DNA of 64,000 bases from Sneathiella sp. (GTDB lineage Bacteria > Pseudomonadota > Alphaproteobacteria > Sneathiellales > Sneathiellaceae). The stretch is taken from NCBI RefSeq assembly GCF_002694385.1, contig NZ_NZMB01000005.1, forward strand, positions 367,739 through 431,738, read 5' to 3'. The translations under genes and the position numbers were made by a program. Below are positions 19,911-27,550 of this stretch, in pieces (positions within the stretch are counted from its first letter, which is position 1; each line of letters opens with the position of its first letter). The notes under the pieces are model-generated. The model did no database searches and was not told the origin of the DNA. It worked only from the letters and a program-made list of their open reading frames with translations.

Positions 19911-21203
19911 ATGGCGAACGTTGCGGTGGTTGGTTCCCAGTGGGGTGACGAGGGCAAAGGCAAGATCGTTGACTGGCTGTCACAGCGCGCCGATGTTGTT
20001 GTGCGTTTTCAGGGAGGGCATAACGCAGGTCACACCCTCGTCGTTGATGGCAAGGTCTATAAACTCAGCTTGCTGCCTTCTGGTATTGTGCGGGGCGGCA
20101 AGATGTCGATCATTGGCAATGGCGTTGTCGTCGATCCCTGGGCGCTGATGAAGGAAATAGAGACAGTGCGCGCGCAAGGGGTGATAGTGGATCACAACAC
20201 GCTGAAGATTGCCGAAAATGCGACGCTGATCCTGCCGCTGCATGGGGAACTCGATGCACTGCGCGAGGATGCCAGCACCGCTGTTAAGATCGGCACCACA
20301 CGCCGTGGCATCGGTCCGGCCTATGAGGACAAGGCGGCGCGGCGCGCCATCCGTGTCTGCGATCTGACTGACGAGGCGCTGCTGAAACGCAAGATTTCGA
20401 CCCTCCTCGATCATCATAATGCGCTCCGCAAGGGGATGGGCGCGGAGTTGGTGGATGGTGATAAGTTGCTCGCGCAACTTATTGAAATTGCTCCGAAGGT
20501 GCTCGAGTTTTCCGATATTGTCTGGCGCCGCCTTGATGAAGCGCGGAAGGATCGCCGCCGGATTCTGTTTGAAGGCGCGCAGGGCGCGATGCTGGATAAC
20601 GACCACGGCACCTATCCTTTCGTGACCTCTTCCAACACGCTGGCCGGACAGGCGGCGGTCGGCAGCGGTATCGGCCCCGGTTCGGTCAATTATGTGCTGG
20701 GCATTACCAAGGCCTATACCACCCGCGTGGGGGAAGGGCCGTTCCCGACGGAACTGTTTGATGACATCGGCGAAGGTCTGGGCGCCCGCGGCCGCGAGTT
20801 TGGGGTTGTTACGGGGCGCAAGCGGCGCTGCGGCTGGTTTGATGCGGTAATGGTGCGTCAGGCCGTCAAGACCGGCGGCATAACCGGCATTGCGCTGACT
20901 AAGCTGGATGTGCTCGATGGCATGGAAGAGCTTAAAATCTGCGTCGGCTATGAGCTGAACGGCCAGAAAATAGATTATTTCCCCGCCAGTATGGCCGATC
21001 AGGCGGCGGTCAAACCGATTTATGAAACCATGGAAGGATGGAGCGACAGCACCTTTGGCGCACGGACATGGGCGGACCTGCCTGCCGCCGCCGTCAAATA
21101 TATCCGCCATGTGGAAGAGCTGATCGAGGCGCCGGTCGCGCTGCTGTCCACCAGTCCGGAACGCGAAGACACCATTCTGGTGCGCGATCCGTTCGAAGAT
21201 TAG
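19911..21203 (+). CDS. purA: Adenylosuccinate synthetase
   Basis: [50 protein letters not shown]. Confidence 0.98.
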
Positions 21204-21242: not shown

Positions 21243-22418
21243 ATGACAAAGGCATCCATCCATATAATGCAGCTTGCCATCGGCGGGCTGCTGGCGCTGG
21301 CCATCGGCCTCGGCATCAGCCGGTTTGTCTTTACGCCGATCCTGCCCTTTATGGAAGCGGGGCTCGGCCTTGACAAGACGCAGGCGGGGCTGATTGCCTC
21401 AGCAAATTTTCTGGGCTACCTCGTTGGTGCCCTGCTGGCAATCCGGCAGTCTCTTCCGGGATCGCTGCGGCTCTGGTTTCTGTCCGCCTTGATGGTCTGC
21501 GCCCTGACGACAATCCTGATGGGGCTGTCGGACAGCATTGGGGTATTTCTTTTTCTGCGGTTTGTGGGTGGAATTGCCTCGGCCTTTGTCATGATTTTCG
21601 GCACCACCCTGATCCTCAACCGCTTCGCGGAGCAAGGGCGTTCTTCTCTTTCGGCGCTGTATTTTGCCGGAGTGGGGGTCGGTATTTCCCTCTCCTCGCT
21701 GCTGATCATGTCGCTGATTGCAATCGGCACAGACTGGCGGGAAATGTGGATTTGGACCGGCTGCCTCTCGGCGGCGATGCTGCTTCCGGTTTTCTGGCTG
21801 GTGCCTGGGGAGGGCAAGGCCGTTGTCATTGTAGAGAGCCCGCCGAAAATGAGTTTCAGCAACCCGCTCAAAGCATTGATCCTGTCCTATTTCCTGCTCG
21901 GCTTTGGCTATATTATCACGGCGACCTTTATTTCGGTTCTGGTGCGGCAAATTCCCGGCTTGCAATGGATGCAGACGCTGGTTTGGCTGGTGGTCGGTCT
22001 TGCCGGAATTCCTTCGGTGGCGATTTGGTCCTGGGTCGGGCGGCGGATCGGCAATCATAACAGCTATGCTCTTGCGAGCCTTTGTCTCGCCATCGGTGTG
22101 GCCGGTAGCGTATATGCCGCGAGTGCGGGCGCGGTTCTTGCGAGTGCAGTGCTGCTGGGCGGCACTTTCATGGGAATGTCCGCCGTCGGGCTTGTTCATG
22201 CCCGTGAGATGTTGCCGGGTAATGCCCGGCAGATTCTGGCCATCATGACACTGGCCTTTGGCCTTGGTCAGACGATCGGGCCGGTTTTTGCAGGCTATAT
22301 TTACGGCATTTTCGGGGATTTCGTTGTGGCATCGCTTATCGCTTCGGCCGGACTGGGGATTGCCGCCTTGCTGACGGCCCTTGGCAAGACCTCAGCTTTG
22401 CAGAATCCGGGGCGGTAA
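21243..22418 (+). CDS. MFS transporter, YbfB/YjiJ-like
   Basis: ~12 hydrophobic segments; GISRFVFTPILPFMEAGLGLDKTQAGLIASANFLGYLVGAL typical of the YbfB/YjiJ MFS family. Confidence 0.88.
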   Translation: MTKASIHIMQLAIGGLLALAIGLGISRFVFTPILPFMEAGLGLDKTQAGLIASANFLGYLVGALLAIRQSLPGSLRLWFLSALMVCALTTILMGLSDSIGVFLFLRFVGGIASAFVMIFGTTLILNRFAEQGRSSLSALYFAGVGVGISLSSLLIMSLIAIGTDWREMWIWTGCLSAAMLLPVFWLVPGEGKAVVIVESPPKMSFSNPLKALILSYFLLGFGYIITATFISVLVRQIPGLQWMQTLVWLVVGLAGIPSVAIWSWVGRRIGNHNSYALASLCLAIGVAGSVYAASAGAVLASAVLLGGTFMGMSAVGLVHAREMLPGNARQILAIMTLAFGLGQTIGPVFAGYIYGIFGDFVVASLIASAGLGIAALLTALGKTSALQNPGR

Positions 22419-22497
22419 CCCGCAAGAGTTTAACGGCATCTTAACGTCATTTTGCGAATGTTGGCCCGGATTTGAGGTAACTGACAGAGCCGCTCGC

Positions 22498-23601
22498 ATG
22501 AGTCTCGCCGAAAAACTGGAAACACCGACTGACGCCGCTCCTGCGGAACGCGGCGCGCTGCTGGCTGGCCGTTTCCGGATAGACCTGTCGCGGCCTGTTG
22601 ATTTCCTTCAGCAGGGGGCAAGCATTGCCGTTGAAGCGGCCGATATTCAGGACCCGACTAACGAACTTGTGGCTGTAATATCAAGCCCTTACAGCTATTA
22701 CCGCAAACCGGTTGCGGACGCCATCAAGAACAGCCGTAACGGCGGAACCCTTGATCTTCTGGCGCATGGCGTCGTGCGTTTTTCCTCTCTCGATATCCGC
22801 TACGCCACAGTGTTTGAACGCCCCCGGGGCGGACCGGTTCATAAAGACGGTCATGGCGGCATGTCTGAGAATCTGATTCTGGAAAAGGTTTTGCCACCCA
22901 TTGCCGCCTGCCTTCTCGATCTCCATCAGGGGGCAATGACGCATCGTGCCATTCGCGCCGACAACCTGTTCTACAGCGATAGCGAGCGTCAGACTATCGT
23001 GTTGGGCGAGGCGATCAGCCAGGCGCCGGGACTGCTGCAACCGACTGTTTATGAACCGCTTGAAAGCATGATGGCGCATCCGGCGGGCCGTGGGGACGGC
23101 GTGCCGGCCCATGATCTCTATGCGGTGGGCATCCTGTTTCTGCATCTGCTCGGCGGGGAAGCGCCGGGCGGTGGAATGAGTGATGAAGAGCTTTATCGCG
23201 GCAAACTTCTGAAGGGCAGTTTTTCCTTGCTGGCGGAAAAGCTGAGCCTGTCGCCGCGGATGTCCGATATCCTGGCGGGCCTGCTGCATGATGACCCGGC
23301 GCGCCGCTGGAATGCGGAAAAGCTGGCAAACTGGCGCGATGTCATCAAGGAGACGCCGCGCCGCGGACGCGGAGATACGCGGGCGCTCGACAAGATCCTG
23401 TTCGAGGAAGTGGAATATGGCTCGCCCCGGCTGCTGGCGCACAATATGATCAGCAAGCCCAAGGCGGCGCTTGATCTTCTGCGCAGTGGCCGACTTGCGA
23501 AATGGATAAAAAACGCCCTGCGCGATGAGGCAACAGCCACAGAAATCTCCCAAATTCAGGGAAGCATTGGGGGGGGCGGCCCATGCACAGGCGCGCAGTG
23601 A
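22498..23601 (+). CDS. Kinase-fold protein, predicted pseudokinase; N-terminal fragment ending at a frameshift
   Basis: Degenerate kinase subdomains: THRAIRADNLFY (HRDxKxxN-like), IVLGEAIS (DFG-like), PAHDLYAVGILFLHLLGGEAP (subdomain IX), LLHDDPARRWNAEKL (subdomain XI); ATG at 22498. Confidence 0.8.
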   Translation: MSLAEKLETPTDAAPAERGALLAGRFRIDLSRPVDFLQQGASIAVEAADIQDPTNELVAVISSPYSYYRKPVADAIKNSRNGGTLDLLAHGVVRFSSLDIRYATVFERPRGGPVHKDGHGGMSENLILEKVLPPIAACLLDLHQGAMTHRAIRADNLFYSDSERQTIVLGEAISQAPGLLQPTVYEPLESMMAHPAGRGDGVPAHDLYAVGILFLHLLGGEAPGGGMSDEELYRGKLLKGSFSLLAEKLSLSPRMSDILAGLLHDDPARRWNAEKLANWRDVIKETPRRGRGDTRALDKILFEEVEYGSPRLLAHNMISKPKAALDLLRSGRLAKWIKNALRDEATATEISQIQGSIGGGGPCTGAQ

Positions 23602-24547
23602 GACCACGGCTGTCACCCATATGCTGCGCCTGCTCGATCCGAAGGCACCACTCTGGTATCGCAATATCTCCTTCTCCCGCAATGCAATCGGTATGCTGAT
23701 GCTGGAGGCATTTCGGCAAGACAATATGGAGATGAAAAAGTCCATCGCTGAATTGTTCGAGAGTGGTCTCTTGCTGAACATCGCCATGACCGAGTTTCGC
23801 GACAAGCGGGAGCGCCGCGCCGACTGGCTGCCCGAAGCCTCGATCACCGGATGTCAGGGTTATATGAAAAATGGCGGCGAGCTTGGCTATGGGCTTGAAC
23901 GCTGTCTTTATGAACTCAGCCCGGAGACACCCTGTCTGAGCACGCTTGTGCTGGGGTCGCATGTGCGTAATATTTCGGAATTTATTGAAGTTGCGGAACA
24001 GAAGCTGCTGGCGTCGAATGGGCATGGCAACCCTTTTGACCGTCATGCGGCGGCCTTCATCGCGACAAAATCACGCGGGCTCGATAAGTTTCTGATATCG
24101 CTGACCCTGTATCCGGCGGGCAGTGTTGAACACGTGCTGGTGGAACTCAAGCTGTTTGCAAAGCTGCAAGCGCTCAGCCATCCTGGACCACTGCCCGGTT
24201 TTGCCGCTTGGGCGGAAGAGATGCTGAAACCGGTCTTCCTGAAAATCCGCTCCCGATTGCGCCGGGAAGTGGTCATACAGCGATTTCGCGAGGCCCGGAA
24301 AAGCGGCGACCTTGGCATGATCCTTGAGGCAACCGACCTGGAGCGGCAACTTGCGCAGGACCGCCGGGAATATGAAGAAGCCCTTGCCGCCGCCGGAGAG
24401 GCGGATCGACTGGCCATCTTCCTGATGAATGGCACAGACGCGCGGCGGGCCGCCGCTGAAGGATATGGCGCCTGGATTACATCTGTTCTTTCAGTTACGG
24501 CATTACTGGCCAGTACGATTCTTTCTGTCTTGTATTTTATGGAATAG
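23525..24547 (+). CDS. C-terminal half of the frameshifted pseudokinase: helical domain with C-terminal TM helix
   Basis: Reads as a continuous extension of 22498..23601 if one G of the G8 tract is removed; C-terminal hydrophobic ITSVLSVTALLASTILSVLYFME. Confidence 0.7.
   Translation: MRQQPQKSPKFREALGGAAHAQARSETTAVTHMLRLLDPKAPLWYRNISFSRNAIGMLMLEAFRQDNMEMKKSIAELFESGLLLNIAMTEFRDKRERRADWLPEASITGCQGYMKNGGELGYGLERCLYELSPETPCLSTLVLGSHVRNISEFIEVAEQKLLASNGHGNPFDRHAAAFIATKSRGLDKFLISLTLYPAGSVEHVLVELKLFAKLQALSHPGPLPGFAAWAEEMLKPVFLKIRSRLRREVVIQRFREARKSGDLGMILEATDLERQLAQDRREYEEALAAAGEADRLAIFLMNGTDARRAAAEGYGAWITSVLSVTALLASTILSVLYFME
23569..23576 (+). other. G8 homopolymer at frameshift junction
   Basis: gcatt-gggggggg-cggcc, where the two ORF frames meet. 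Confidence 0.9.
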
Positions 24548-24550
24548 ACA

Positions 24551-25045
24551 ATGGCGAAGCAGAAAAAGCAGCCTGCAAAAATGGCGGAAAACAGGGTCGG
24601 GCAGGGCATCGCCCTGTTTTGGGTGATGGTCTTTTCCGGGCTTGGAATTGTATTTATTCCGCCAACCATGCTGATTCTCTTTGCCGGATTGATCCCGAGC
24701 CTTGTGGCAATTCTATTGAACACCGGCCGCATTGGCAGCATTGCCACGATGCTTGCTTTCAACCTTGCCGGTATCATCCCGGTTATCGGCATCCTGTGGG
24801 ATCGGGGCCAGACGTTCAACGAAGCGTTCCGGATGCTGACCGATGTTTACATGTGGCTGGCCATGTTTGGCGGGGCGGGGCTGGCGGTTTTTCTGTCCTG
24901 GGCCGTGCCGATTGTTGTTTTCTCCGCGTCTGAATTGCAGGCGAAGGCGATGATCGCCAAACTTCAAAAGCGGCGCATGAAGCTGGTCGAAGAATGGGGC
25001 GGGCAGTTTGTTGCCGATATGAAAGACGGCGCCAGTGGCCGCTGA
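24551..25045 (+). CDS. Small multi-TM hypothetical protein
   Basis: Several hydrophobic helices (GIALFWVMVFSGLGIVFIPPTMLILFAGLIPSLVAILL; MWLAMFGGAGLAVFLSWAVPIVVFSASE); starts 3 bp after the preceding ORF. Confidence 0.78.
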   Translation: MAKQKKQPAKMAENRVGQGIALFWVMVFSGLGIVFIPPTMLILFAGLIPSLVAILLNTGRIGSIATMLAFNLAGIIPVIGILWDRGQTFNEAFRMLTDVYMWLAMFGGAGLAVFLSWAVPIVVFSASELQAKAMIAKLQKRRMKLVEEWGGQFVADMKDGASGR

Positions 25046-25586: not shown

Positions 25587-26465
25587 TCAGCCGATCCGTT
25601 CTTCCAGGACTTTTGCCTTCATGGCCCGTTGCAGCTTTTCAAAGGCGCGCACTTCGATCTGGCGCACCCTCTCGCGGCTGATGTCATAATGCTGGCTCAG
25701 CTCTTCGAGTGTGAGTGGTTCATCGCGTAGCCGCCGTTCGGTGAGAATATGCTTCTCCCGCTCGTTCAGGACATCCATGGCCTTTTCCAGCATGGTGCGA
25801 CGGCGCTTCAGCTCTTCATTCTCCGCATAAACGGTTTCCTGGTTCGGGCTGTCATCTTCCAGCCAATCCATCCATTCGCCTTCACTTTCGGCGCGCATGG
25901 GGGCGTTGAGGCTATGATCCGGCGCCGTCAGGCGGCGGTTCATGCTGACCACTTCCTCCTCGGTCACGCCGAGTTTTTTCGAAATGGTCTTGACCTGATC
26001 GGCCGTCATGTCGCCTTCGTCAATGGCCTCAATCTGCCCCTTGATCTTGCGCAGGTTGAAGAACAGCTTTTTCTGGGCGGCGGTCGTCCCCATTTTAACG
26101 AGCGACCAAGTGCGCAGGATATATTCCTGAATAGCGGCGCGGATCCACCACATGGCGTAGGTGGACAGGCGAAAGCCCTTCTCGGGTTCAAATCGCTTGA
26201 CCGCCTGCATCATGCCGACATTGCCTTCGGAAATCAGCTCGGCAATCGGCAGGCCATAGCCGCGATAACCCATGGCGATCTTTGCCACAAGGCGCAGATG
26301 GCTTGTCACCATCTTGTGCGCGGCATCGGTATCGCCGTGATCTTTCCAGGCCTTGGCCAGCATGTATTCTTCGTCCGCTTCCAACATAGGAAATTTGCGG
26401 ATTTCCTGCAGGTAGCGGGACAGGCCGCCTTCCGGCGTCAATACGGGTAAGGATGATATGCTCAT
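25587..26465 (-). CDS. rpoH: RNA polymerase heat-shock sigma factor RpoH (sigma-32)
   Basis: Sigma70 regions 2 and 4; RpoH-type AAQKKLFFNLRKIKG box; downstream of rluD. Confidence 0.95.
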   Translation of the reverse strand: MSISSLPVLTPEGGLSRYLQEIRKFPMLEADEEYMLAKAWKDHGDTDAAHKMVTSHLRLVAKIAMGYRGYGLPIAELISEGNVGMMQAVKRFEPEKGFRLSTYAMWWIRAAIQEYILRTWSLVKMGTTAAQKKLFFNLRKIKGQIEAIDEGDMTADQVKTISKKLGVTEEEVVSMNRRLTAPDHSLNAPMRAESEGEWMDWLEDDSPNQETVYAENEELKRRRTMLEKAMDVLNEREKHILTERRLRDEPLTLEELSQHYDISRERVRQIEVRAFEKLQRAMKAKVLEERIG

Positions 26466-26578
26466 ATTCAGGACCCTCTCTCTTTCTGGCGCCTGTCTTT
26501 CGTCATTCAGGATGCCCGAAAAACAAGCCCGACAAACTCCTGTCTAGGGGATAATCATGGCGATTTGATGTTGTCGTT

Positions 26579-27550
26579 CTAACCCCTCAGCGCCGCGATC
26601 AACTCCCTCAGATCAGATGGTAAATCTACCTCAAACTTCAAGGGCTTGTCTGTGACGGGGTGCACAAATCCGAGGGTTTCGGCATGCAGCGCCTGGCGGG
26701 AGAAAGCGAGGATCACCGCCTGACGGGATTCCTCAAGGGAGCTGACGCGGCTTTTTTTCTGGCGGCTGTAGAGTGGATCGCCAAGCAGCGGATGGCCGAT
26801 ATGAGCCATATGAACGCGAATCTGGTGGGTGCGCCCGGTCTCCAGTTCACAGGTGACAAGAGCCGCGATGTCGGAGAAATTTTCTTCCAGCCGATAGCGG
26901 GTGAGGGCGGGTTTCCCGCCTTTTGTGACCATTGCCATGCGTTTGCGGTTATGCGGGTCGCGGCCAATGCTGCCTTCAATCTCTCCCGTTGGCGGGTAAA
27001 GGCGGCCCCACACCACGGCCTTGTAGCGCCGTTCGATATCATGGGCGGCAAACAGGGCGGCCAGGCCCTGATGCGCGGCGTCATTCTTCGCCGCCACGAG
27101 AAGACCGCTGGTCTCCTTGTCGATCCTGTGGACAATTCCGGGCCGTTTTACCCCGCCGATACCGGACAGGCTGTCGCGGCAGTGATGCAGCAGGGCATTG
27201 ACCAACGTGCCGGACCAGTTTCCCGCCGCCGGATGCACCACCATGCCGGCGGGTTTGTTGACAACGATCAGATGCTCATCCTCAAACAGGATTTCGAGGG
27301 GAATATCCTCGGGTTCCGGATCGCCTTCCGCCGCTTCCGGGAGGTGAATTTCATAGGACTCTCCCGGTTGCACCCGACGGGACGGATCGGTGACGGCGAC
27401 GCCCGCAAGGGTGACCATACCCCCCTTAATCAGCGGCTTGATGCGGCTTCTGGAAACATCCGGCAGCGCGTCCGCCAGCAGCCGGTCGAGGCGCGCACCG
27501 CGAACGTCTTCTGAAACTTCAACTTGATGTAACCCCGCATTGAATGGCAT
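26579..27550 (-). CDS. rluD: 23S rRNA pseudouridine synthase RluD-type (RluA family)
   Basis: S4 domain, GIVHRIDKETSGLLVAAKND, RTHQIRVHMAHIGHPLLGD. Confidence 0.93.
   Translation of the reverse strand: MPFNAGLHQVEVSEDVRGARLDRLLADALPDVSRSRIKPLIKGGMVTLAGVAVTDPSRRVQPGESYEIHLPEAAEGDPEPEDIPLEILFEDEHLIVVNKPAGMVVHPAAGNWSGTLVNALLHHCRDSLSGIGGVKRPGIVHRIDKETSGLLVAAKNDAAHQGLAALFAAHDIERRYKAVVWGRLYPPTGEIEGSIGRDPHNRKRMAMVTKGGKPALTRYRLEENFSDIAALVTCELETGRTHQIRVHMAHIGHPLLGDPLYSRQKKSRVSSLEESRQAVILAFSRQALHAETLGFVHPVTDKPLKFEVDLPSDLRELIAALRG

Follow-up and report, generated by a model that had tools for sequence, protein, structure and literature searches.

A family of tail-anchored pseudokinases in Alphaproteobacteria, apparently unnamed, and its probable membrane-protein partner

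Background

A 2025 review (PMC12599244) lists 42 families of bacterial kinases, of which ActPs1-3, DLHK and GLW consist wholly, and CP1 and DYD largely, of pseudokinases, and describes the bacterial pseudokinases as largely unexplored by experiment. Two of the systems treated there resemble the protein described here in combining a degraded kinase-like domain with a place in the membrane. EssB/YukC, a component of type VIIb secretion in Firmicutes, is a membrane pseudokinase with a scaffold role, in which the degraded catalytic motifs read YTFVLAPD and TRG, whereas MviN (family ActPs3) is an actinobacterial membrane protein in which an inactive kinase-like domain, with LSIDHPSR replacing the HRD loop and a deletion in the activation loop, is used for non-catalytic recruitment (PMC12599244).

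When examining a stretch of 64,000 nucleotides of Sneathiella sp. DNA (hereinafter, the window), we observed a gene (22498..24547, + strand), split here by one frameshift, whose product of approximately 680 amino acids, read across the shift, comprises a degraded Hanks-type kinase domain, an all-helical half and a C-terminal tail anchor. The motifs of this protein differ from those of EssB/YukC, neither it nor its orthologue from Sneathiella chungangensis has a family match to EssB/YukC, and the neighbouring genes, which we take to be purA, rpoH and rluD, are not those of type VII secretion. Several other families can be set apart by their traits as well. In the GLW pseudokinases, GLW replaces HRD and the beta-3 motif reads LLLL/W, in contrast to HR(A/S/G) and AL(I/V)C in the 98 sequences of the window family that we counted; ActPs3 is actinobacterial and shows an activation-loop deletion and complete motif loss, whereas the window family is alphaproteobacterial in its spread and retains HR and the catalytic-loop Asn. 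Of the ActPs2 traits (beta-3 Arg, replacement of the HRD Asp by Asn, deletion of DFG), Arg does not occur among the residues listed at beta-3 positions 60-62, Asn takes the HRD position in only 6 of the 98 sequences, and the DFG segment is present. CP1 (no transmembrane region, a link to COG3899) and DLHK (no transmembrane region, HRD Asp kept) contrast with a C-terminal transmembrane segment in 96 of 96 members and no HRD Asp in any of the 98. For ActPs1, which is related to Act1, with the G-helix missing in ~60% and a PQQ domain in many, the comparison was by taxon and domains only, and the window family is not actinobacterial and has no PQQ match. Judged by the published descriptions (PMC12599244), therefore, the family fits neither EssB/YukC nor GLW, ActPs2, ActPs3, CP1 or DLHK; it may belong to another of the 42 families. 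Literature searches yielded no paper on the family and no experiment on any member, and it is apparently unnamed.

A kinase-like domain, a helical half and a predicted membrane anchor

The kinase-like domain (approximately residues 20-285; 22555..23352, + strand) consists of a degraded N-lobe and a C-lobe with the catalytic-loop Asn, LGE, YEPLE (the APE counterpart), DLYAVG and RW. The Pfam Pkinase profile matches the window half at E 2.8e-5, under the curated cut-off, and the S. chungangensis orthologue at E 2.6e-8, over the cut-off, and a profile of the family matched MAPKAPK2 among the PDB sequences at E 9.5e-15; the kinase relationship is not due to chance. The AF2 model of the full-length S. 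chungangensis orthologue, built from a 69-row alignment, has a confident kinase fold (mean pLDDT 90.2, pTM 0.83), and in a Foldseek search it matched many solved kinases, with TM-scores by target length of 0.77 for WNK1 and up to 0.71 for PknB. The features of the Hanks-type (eukaryotic-like) superfamily, namely, a bilobal kinase fold, in this case predicted, and significant profile similarity, are thus present. The initial annotation had recognized a kinase C-lobe layout in short strings, all of which we found in the sequence; the comparisons above agree with it, and the structure prediction, which was run as a potential refutation, yielded the kinase fold.

The second half of the protein, from about residue 300 (23395..24475, + strand), harbors the family-invariant motifs G-G-ER-LY..N and D-H. 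Modelled alone, the C-terminal 383 residues are nearly all helix, with a mean pLDDT of 92.1, and close with a 68-residue helix that contains the anchor. What was at first called a helical 'extension' is indeed helical but makes up half of the protein, and its fold is predicted with confidence. A Foldseek search of this half against the PDB returned nothing at E <= 0.001, so that the fold can be called new in the sense of new among solved structures at the sensitivity used, and none of the family libraries searched gave it a named family. The fold search gave no support to profile matches with designed armadillo repeats, which we attribute to helical composition; the signal of internal repeats is weak (E 0.0021, probability 13), and we claim none.

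The last ~20 residues are predicted to hold the protein in the membrane. In the window, this tail anchor (ITSVLSVTALLASTILSVLYFME; 24476..24544, + strand) is a hydrophobic C-terminal helix of a kind seen in 96 of 96 members, and the C-terminal attachment proposed from the window sequence is, on the evidence of the alignment and the model, well supported.

Distribution of the family

An alignment-based scan of GTDB species genomes detected 278 relatives, where a motif scan of genome contigs with the single protein had found no matches. The 80 that we kept come from Sneathiella, Oceanibacterium, Rhodospira, Roseospira, Magnetovibrio, Magnetospirillum, Azospirillum, Oleisolibacter and many other alphaproteobacteria. 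Of 289 genomes sampled evenly across the class, 99 (about a third) encode the family, some of them only ~1.4-2 Mb in size; most carriers have a single copy, but two to four copies occur in several. When the whole phylum was sampled, full-length matches were confined to Alphaproteobacteria; outside the class lay one ordinary kinase and three distant relatives, which match profile positions 18-390 at E about 1e-28 to 1e-30.

The three distant relatives (L169:3424-5487 in G542, L170:931-3330 in G557 and L171:2660-5380 in G318) are motif-intact kinases from other proteobacterial classes. What they share with the window family is the kinase domain plus the opening ~100 residues of its helical half; unlike it, they keep the beta-3 Lys, HRD and DFG, with a catalytic loop that reads HRDIKPGNLFF; their C-terminal part differs, and the gene that we describe below as the partner was not detected in the stretches examined. 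Within L169 and L170, this shared helical segment shows a weak recurrence.

A search of viral contigs found no relatives, and we rejected a viral origin on this ground. Among plasmids, only large replicons of Azospirillum carry the family, so it is not a typical mobile gene. A defence role was considered and dropped as well: what PADLOC matched was kinase domains in general, and the NCBIfam MAD6 and LanL matches fall far short of their cut-offs.

Loss of the catalytic residues

Residues were counted in 98 aligned sequences (97 distinct), 78 of which were counted first. In the catalytic loop, HRAIRADN in the window (22942..22965, + strand), the HRD Asp position is occupied by Ala in 51 sequences, Ser in 19, Gly in 17, Asn in 6 and other residues in the rest, and never by Asp. 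The Ala noted initially in the window copy is therefore real and belongs to a family-wide pattern that came out of an ortholog alignment run as a potential refutation. The Lys two residues beyond is replaced by Arg in 96 of 98, whereas the catalytic-loop Asn is retained in 97. Of the residues required of catalytically competent Hanks-type kinases, the beta-3 Lys (sought at positions 60-62) and the HRD Asp both occur in 0 of 98 sequences and the DFG Asp in 34. Another residue, Arg69 (22702..22704, + strand), which adjoins the start of helix C, is retained in 92 of 98; Arg69 and the other retained residues may have functional roles.

The DFG segment reads LGE in the window (23002..23010, + strand), as the initial annotation had it, but in a register that requires correction. 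The Glu sits on the DFG Asp position, because the family profile aligned to MAPKAPK2 (MK2) pairs LGE with the L-T-D of LTDFG, and the three motif-intact relatives read VGDFG, LGDFG and IADFG at this site; residual metal or nucleotide binding is accordingly less excluded than was first stated. The position is Glu in 56, Asp in 34 and Pro in 8 of the 98 sequences, that is, acidic in 90, and the site for metal binding has thus largely kept its acidic character, with the Phe and Gly of DFG replaced in the window copy. One genome (G152) has four copies (L151, L152, L153 and L154), each with Pro rather than Glu or Asp at this position.

Given that the HRD Asp is absent from all 98 sequences and the beta-3 Lys was not found, while the catalytic-loop Asn persists in 97, the alphaproteobacterial family is, by these counts, one of true pseudokinases and not a decayed kinase, and its members would not catalyze phosphotransfer. 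Since the rare relatives outside the class keep HRD and DFG, the family probably lost catalysis at its base, after parting from the motif-intact kinases; a single basal loss appears to be the simplest reading of a comparison made with three outgroup sequences and without a tree.

A probable partner gene and its neighbourhood

Three bases past the stop of the pseudokinase gene in the window begins a gene for a protein of 164 amino acids (24551..25045, + strand) with 3-4 predicted transmembrane segments and, at the C terminus, a conserved 'EEWG' stretch. We surveyed this position in 79 loci (78 named loci and the window) and collected a downstream open reading frame in 75. A common profile matched 73 of the 75 proteins at E < 1e-5 and that of L122 at 3.5e-5, and did not match the frame picked in L103; as the profile was built from the same frames that it scored, these values test mutual similarity. 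Three of the four remaining loci (L068, L073 and L126) stop too early, and one (L140) is long enough but has no frame by the rule used, so that the partner is present in 74 of the 76 loci with enough sequence. It mostly starts less than ~35 bases from the pseudokinase stop, and in a few loci, where the choice of start is uncertain, farther away. An independent count comes from genomes with several copies, in which the partner adjoins 16 of 19 copies; the extra copies L159, L165 and L166 have no partner matching the common profile. In L155 and L157, the whole pair is duplicated in tandem.

This small membrane-protein gene, to which no family library searched gave a name, is probably the partner of the pseudokinase. 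It was overlooked in the initial annotation and is the strongest functional clue.

Upstream of the main copy, a frequent neighbour is a gene that we take, by sequence recognition, to be purA, for adenylosuccinate synthetase (19911..21203, + strand); the gene between it and the pseudokinase, presumably for an MFS-type transporter (21243..22418, + strand), occurs only in one group of Sneathiella relatives. Common downstream neighbours are the convergent genes that we recognize as those of an rpoH-type sigma factor and an rluD-type pseudouridine synthase (25587..27550, - strand). In Azospirillum ramasamyi (L168), the pair is not near purA but on a large plasmid record, where its two genes are annotated as 'serine/threonine protein kinase' and 'hypothetical protein'. 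Upstream of it are phaC and a gene for a sensor histidine kinase, and downstream a gene for a class A beta-lactamase. Second copies lie beside genes that vary by genome and show no common theme (glycosyltransferase 41, pentapeptide repeats, beta-lactamase, ImpA_N).

Possible roles

The reading that we favor, and hold to be fairly probable, is that the protein is a non-catalytic pseudokinase, tail-anchored in the inner membrane, that serves, jointly with the downstream multi-pass membrane protein, as a scaffold or receptor. Its body would lie in the cytoplasm, where the kinase-like domain and the helical half would bind a cytosolic client or ligand; the anchor and the helices of the partner would then couple the bound state to the membrane, and the pair would do its work without phosphotransfer. 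The best-supported step of this proposed working is the gene pairing, in which adjacency shows co-inheritance and not contact; the two proteins would form a physical complex.

Because the Asn is retained and the DFG position is mostly acidic, the protein may bind nucleotide or metal or have an unconventional activity. The main rival, in our estimate unlikely, is accordingly a sensor that binds nucleotide or Mg2+ through the Asn and the Glu/Asp, with Arg69 or the loop Arg perhaps taking over from the Lys, and signals by a change of shape via the partner. The conservation of these residues (Asn 97, acidic DFG position 90, Arg69 92 and loop Arg 96 of 98) would suit such a protein, as would the adjacency of purA, an adenine-nucleotide gene, to many members, but the glycine-rich loop and the beta-3 Lys are lacking, the DFG Asp position is Pro in 8 of 98, and the purA linkage, absent in Azospirillum, may only reflect inherited gene order.

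Less probable still is a repurposed enzyme, in which the kinase fold runs another ATP-dependent reaction, as in SelO (AMPylation) or SidJ (glutamylation) (PMC12599244). The strong conservation around the former active site is what such an enzyme would show; however, both precedents keep the beta-3 Lys (WHLK/LHLK and VAVK; Table 1 of PMC12599244) that is missing in the window family, and no replacement catalytic residue was identified.

The reading frame of the window copy

In the window, the gene lies in two overlapping + strand open reading frames (22381-23601 and 23525-24547), the first of which encodes 367 amino acids from the ATG at 22498; the frame shifts in a run of eight G (23569..23576, + strand) that is unique to the window copy among those compared. 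The N-terminal half was matched in 22 of 24 other Sneathiella genomes, the two without a match being 56% and 66% complete, and in 19 of these 22 the gene is a single frame of 675-703 amino acids at the same place, which bears out the product of about 682 residues, split at the G-run, that had been proposed at the outset. The remaining three comprise two fragments cut off by contig ends and a copy (L025, genome G009), again at a contig end, that has an internal TAG and may be a second broken one.

Between the window gene and its relatives, third codon positions account for most of the differences in both halves, and the protein identity of the two halves is similar: compared with L061, identity is 0.62 in the first half and 0.67 in the second, and the differences at codon positions 1-3 are 0.25/0.22/0.57 and 0.25/0.16/0.58, respectively. 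By this measure, both halves are under coding constraint, and the frameshift is for this reason judged to be either recent or a homopolymer error. A programmed frameshift was rejected because the intact relatives use a single frame. That the window copy, which does carry a frameshift, represents an ordinary active kinase gene in decay is very improbable in view of the codon pattern of both halves, the intact relatives and the absence of ordinary kinases from the family, at the level of which this reading is largely refuted.

Conclusions

Tentatively, we would go further and see in the tail-anchored pseudokinase and its dedicated multi-pass partner an undescribed two-gene module of the whole class, with a helical domain of a fold unseen among solved structures, that serves some basic membrane-associated process of Alphaproteobacteria; this we regard as possible rather than probable. 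The rare motif-intact relatives provide a reference for the route by which catalysis was lost. Two adjacent genes with clear residues make a tractable handle on pseudokinase function, and the mostly single-copy occurrence, the often conserved chromosomal place and the one partner gene, in organisms such as Magnetospirillum and Azospirillum, would allow a clean test of the role of a bacterial pseudokinase.
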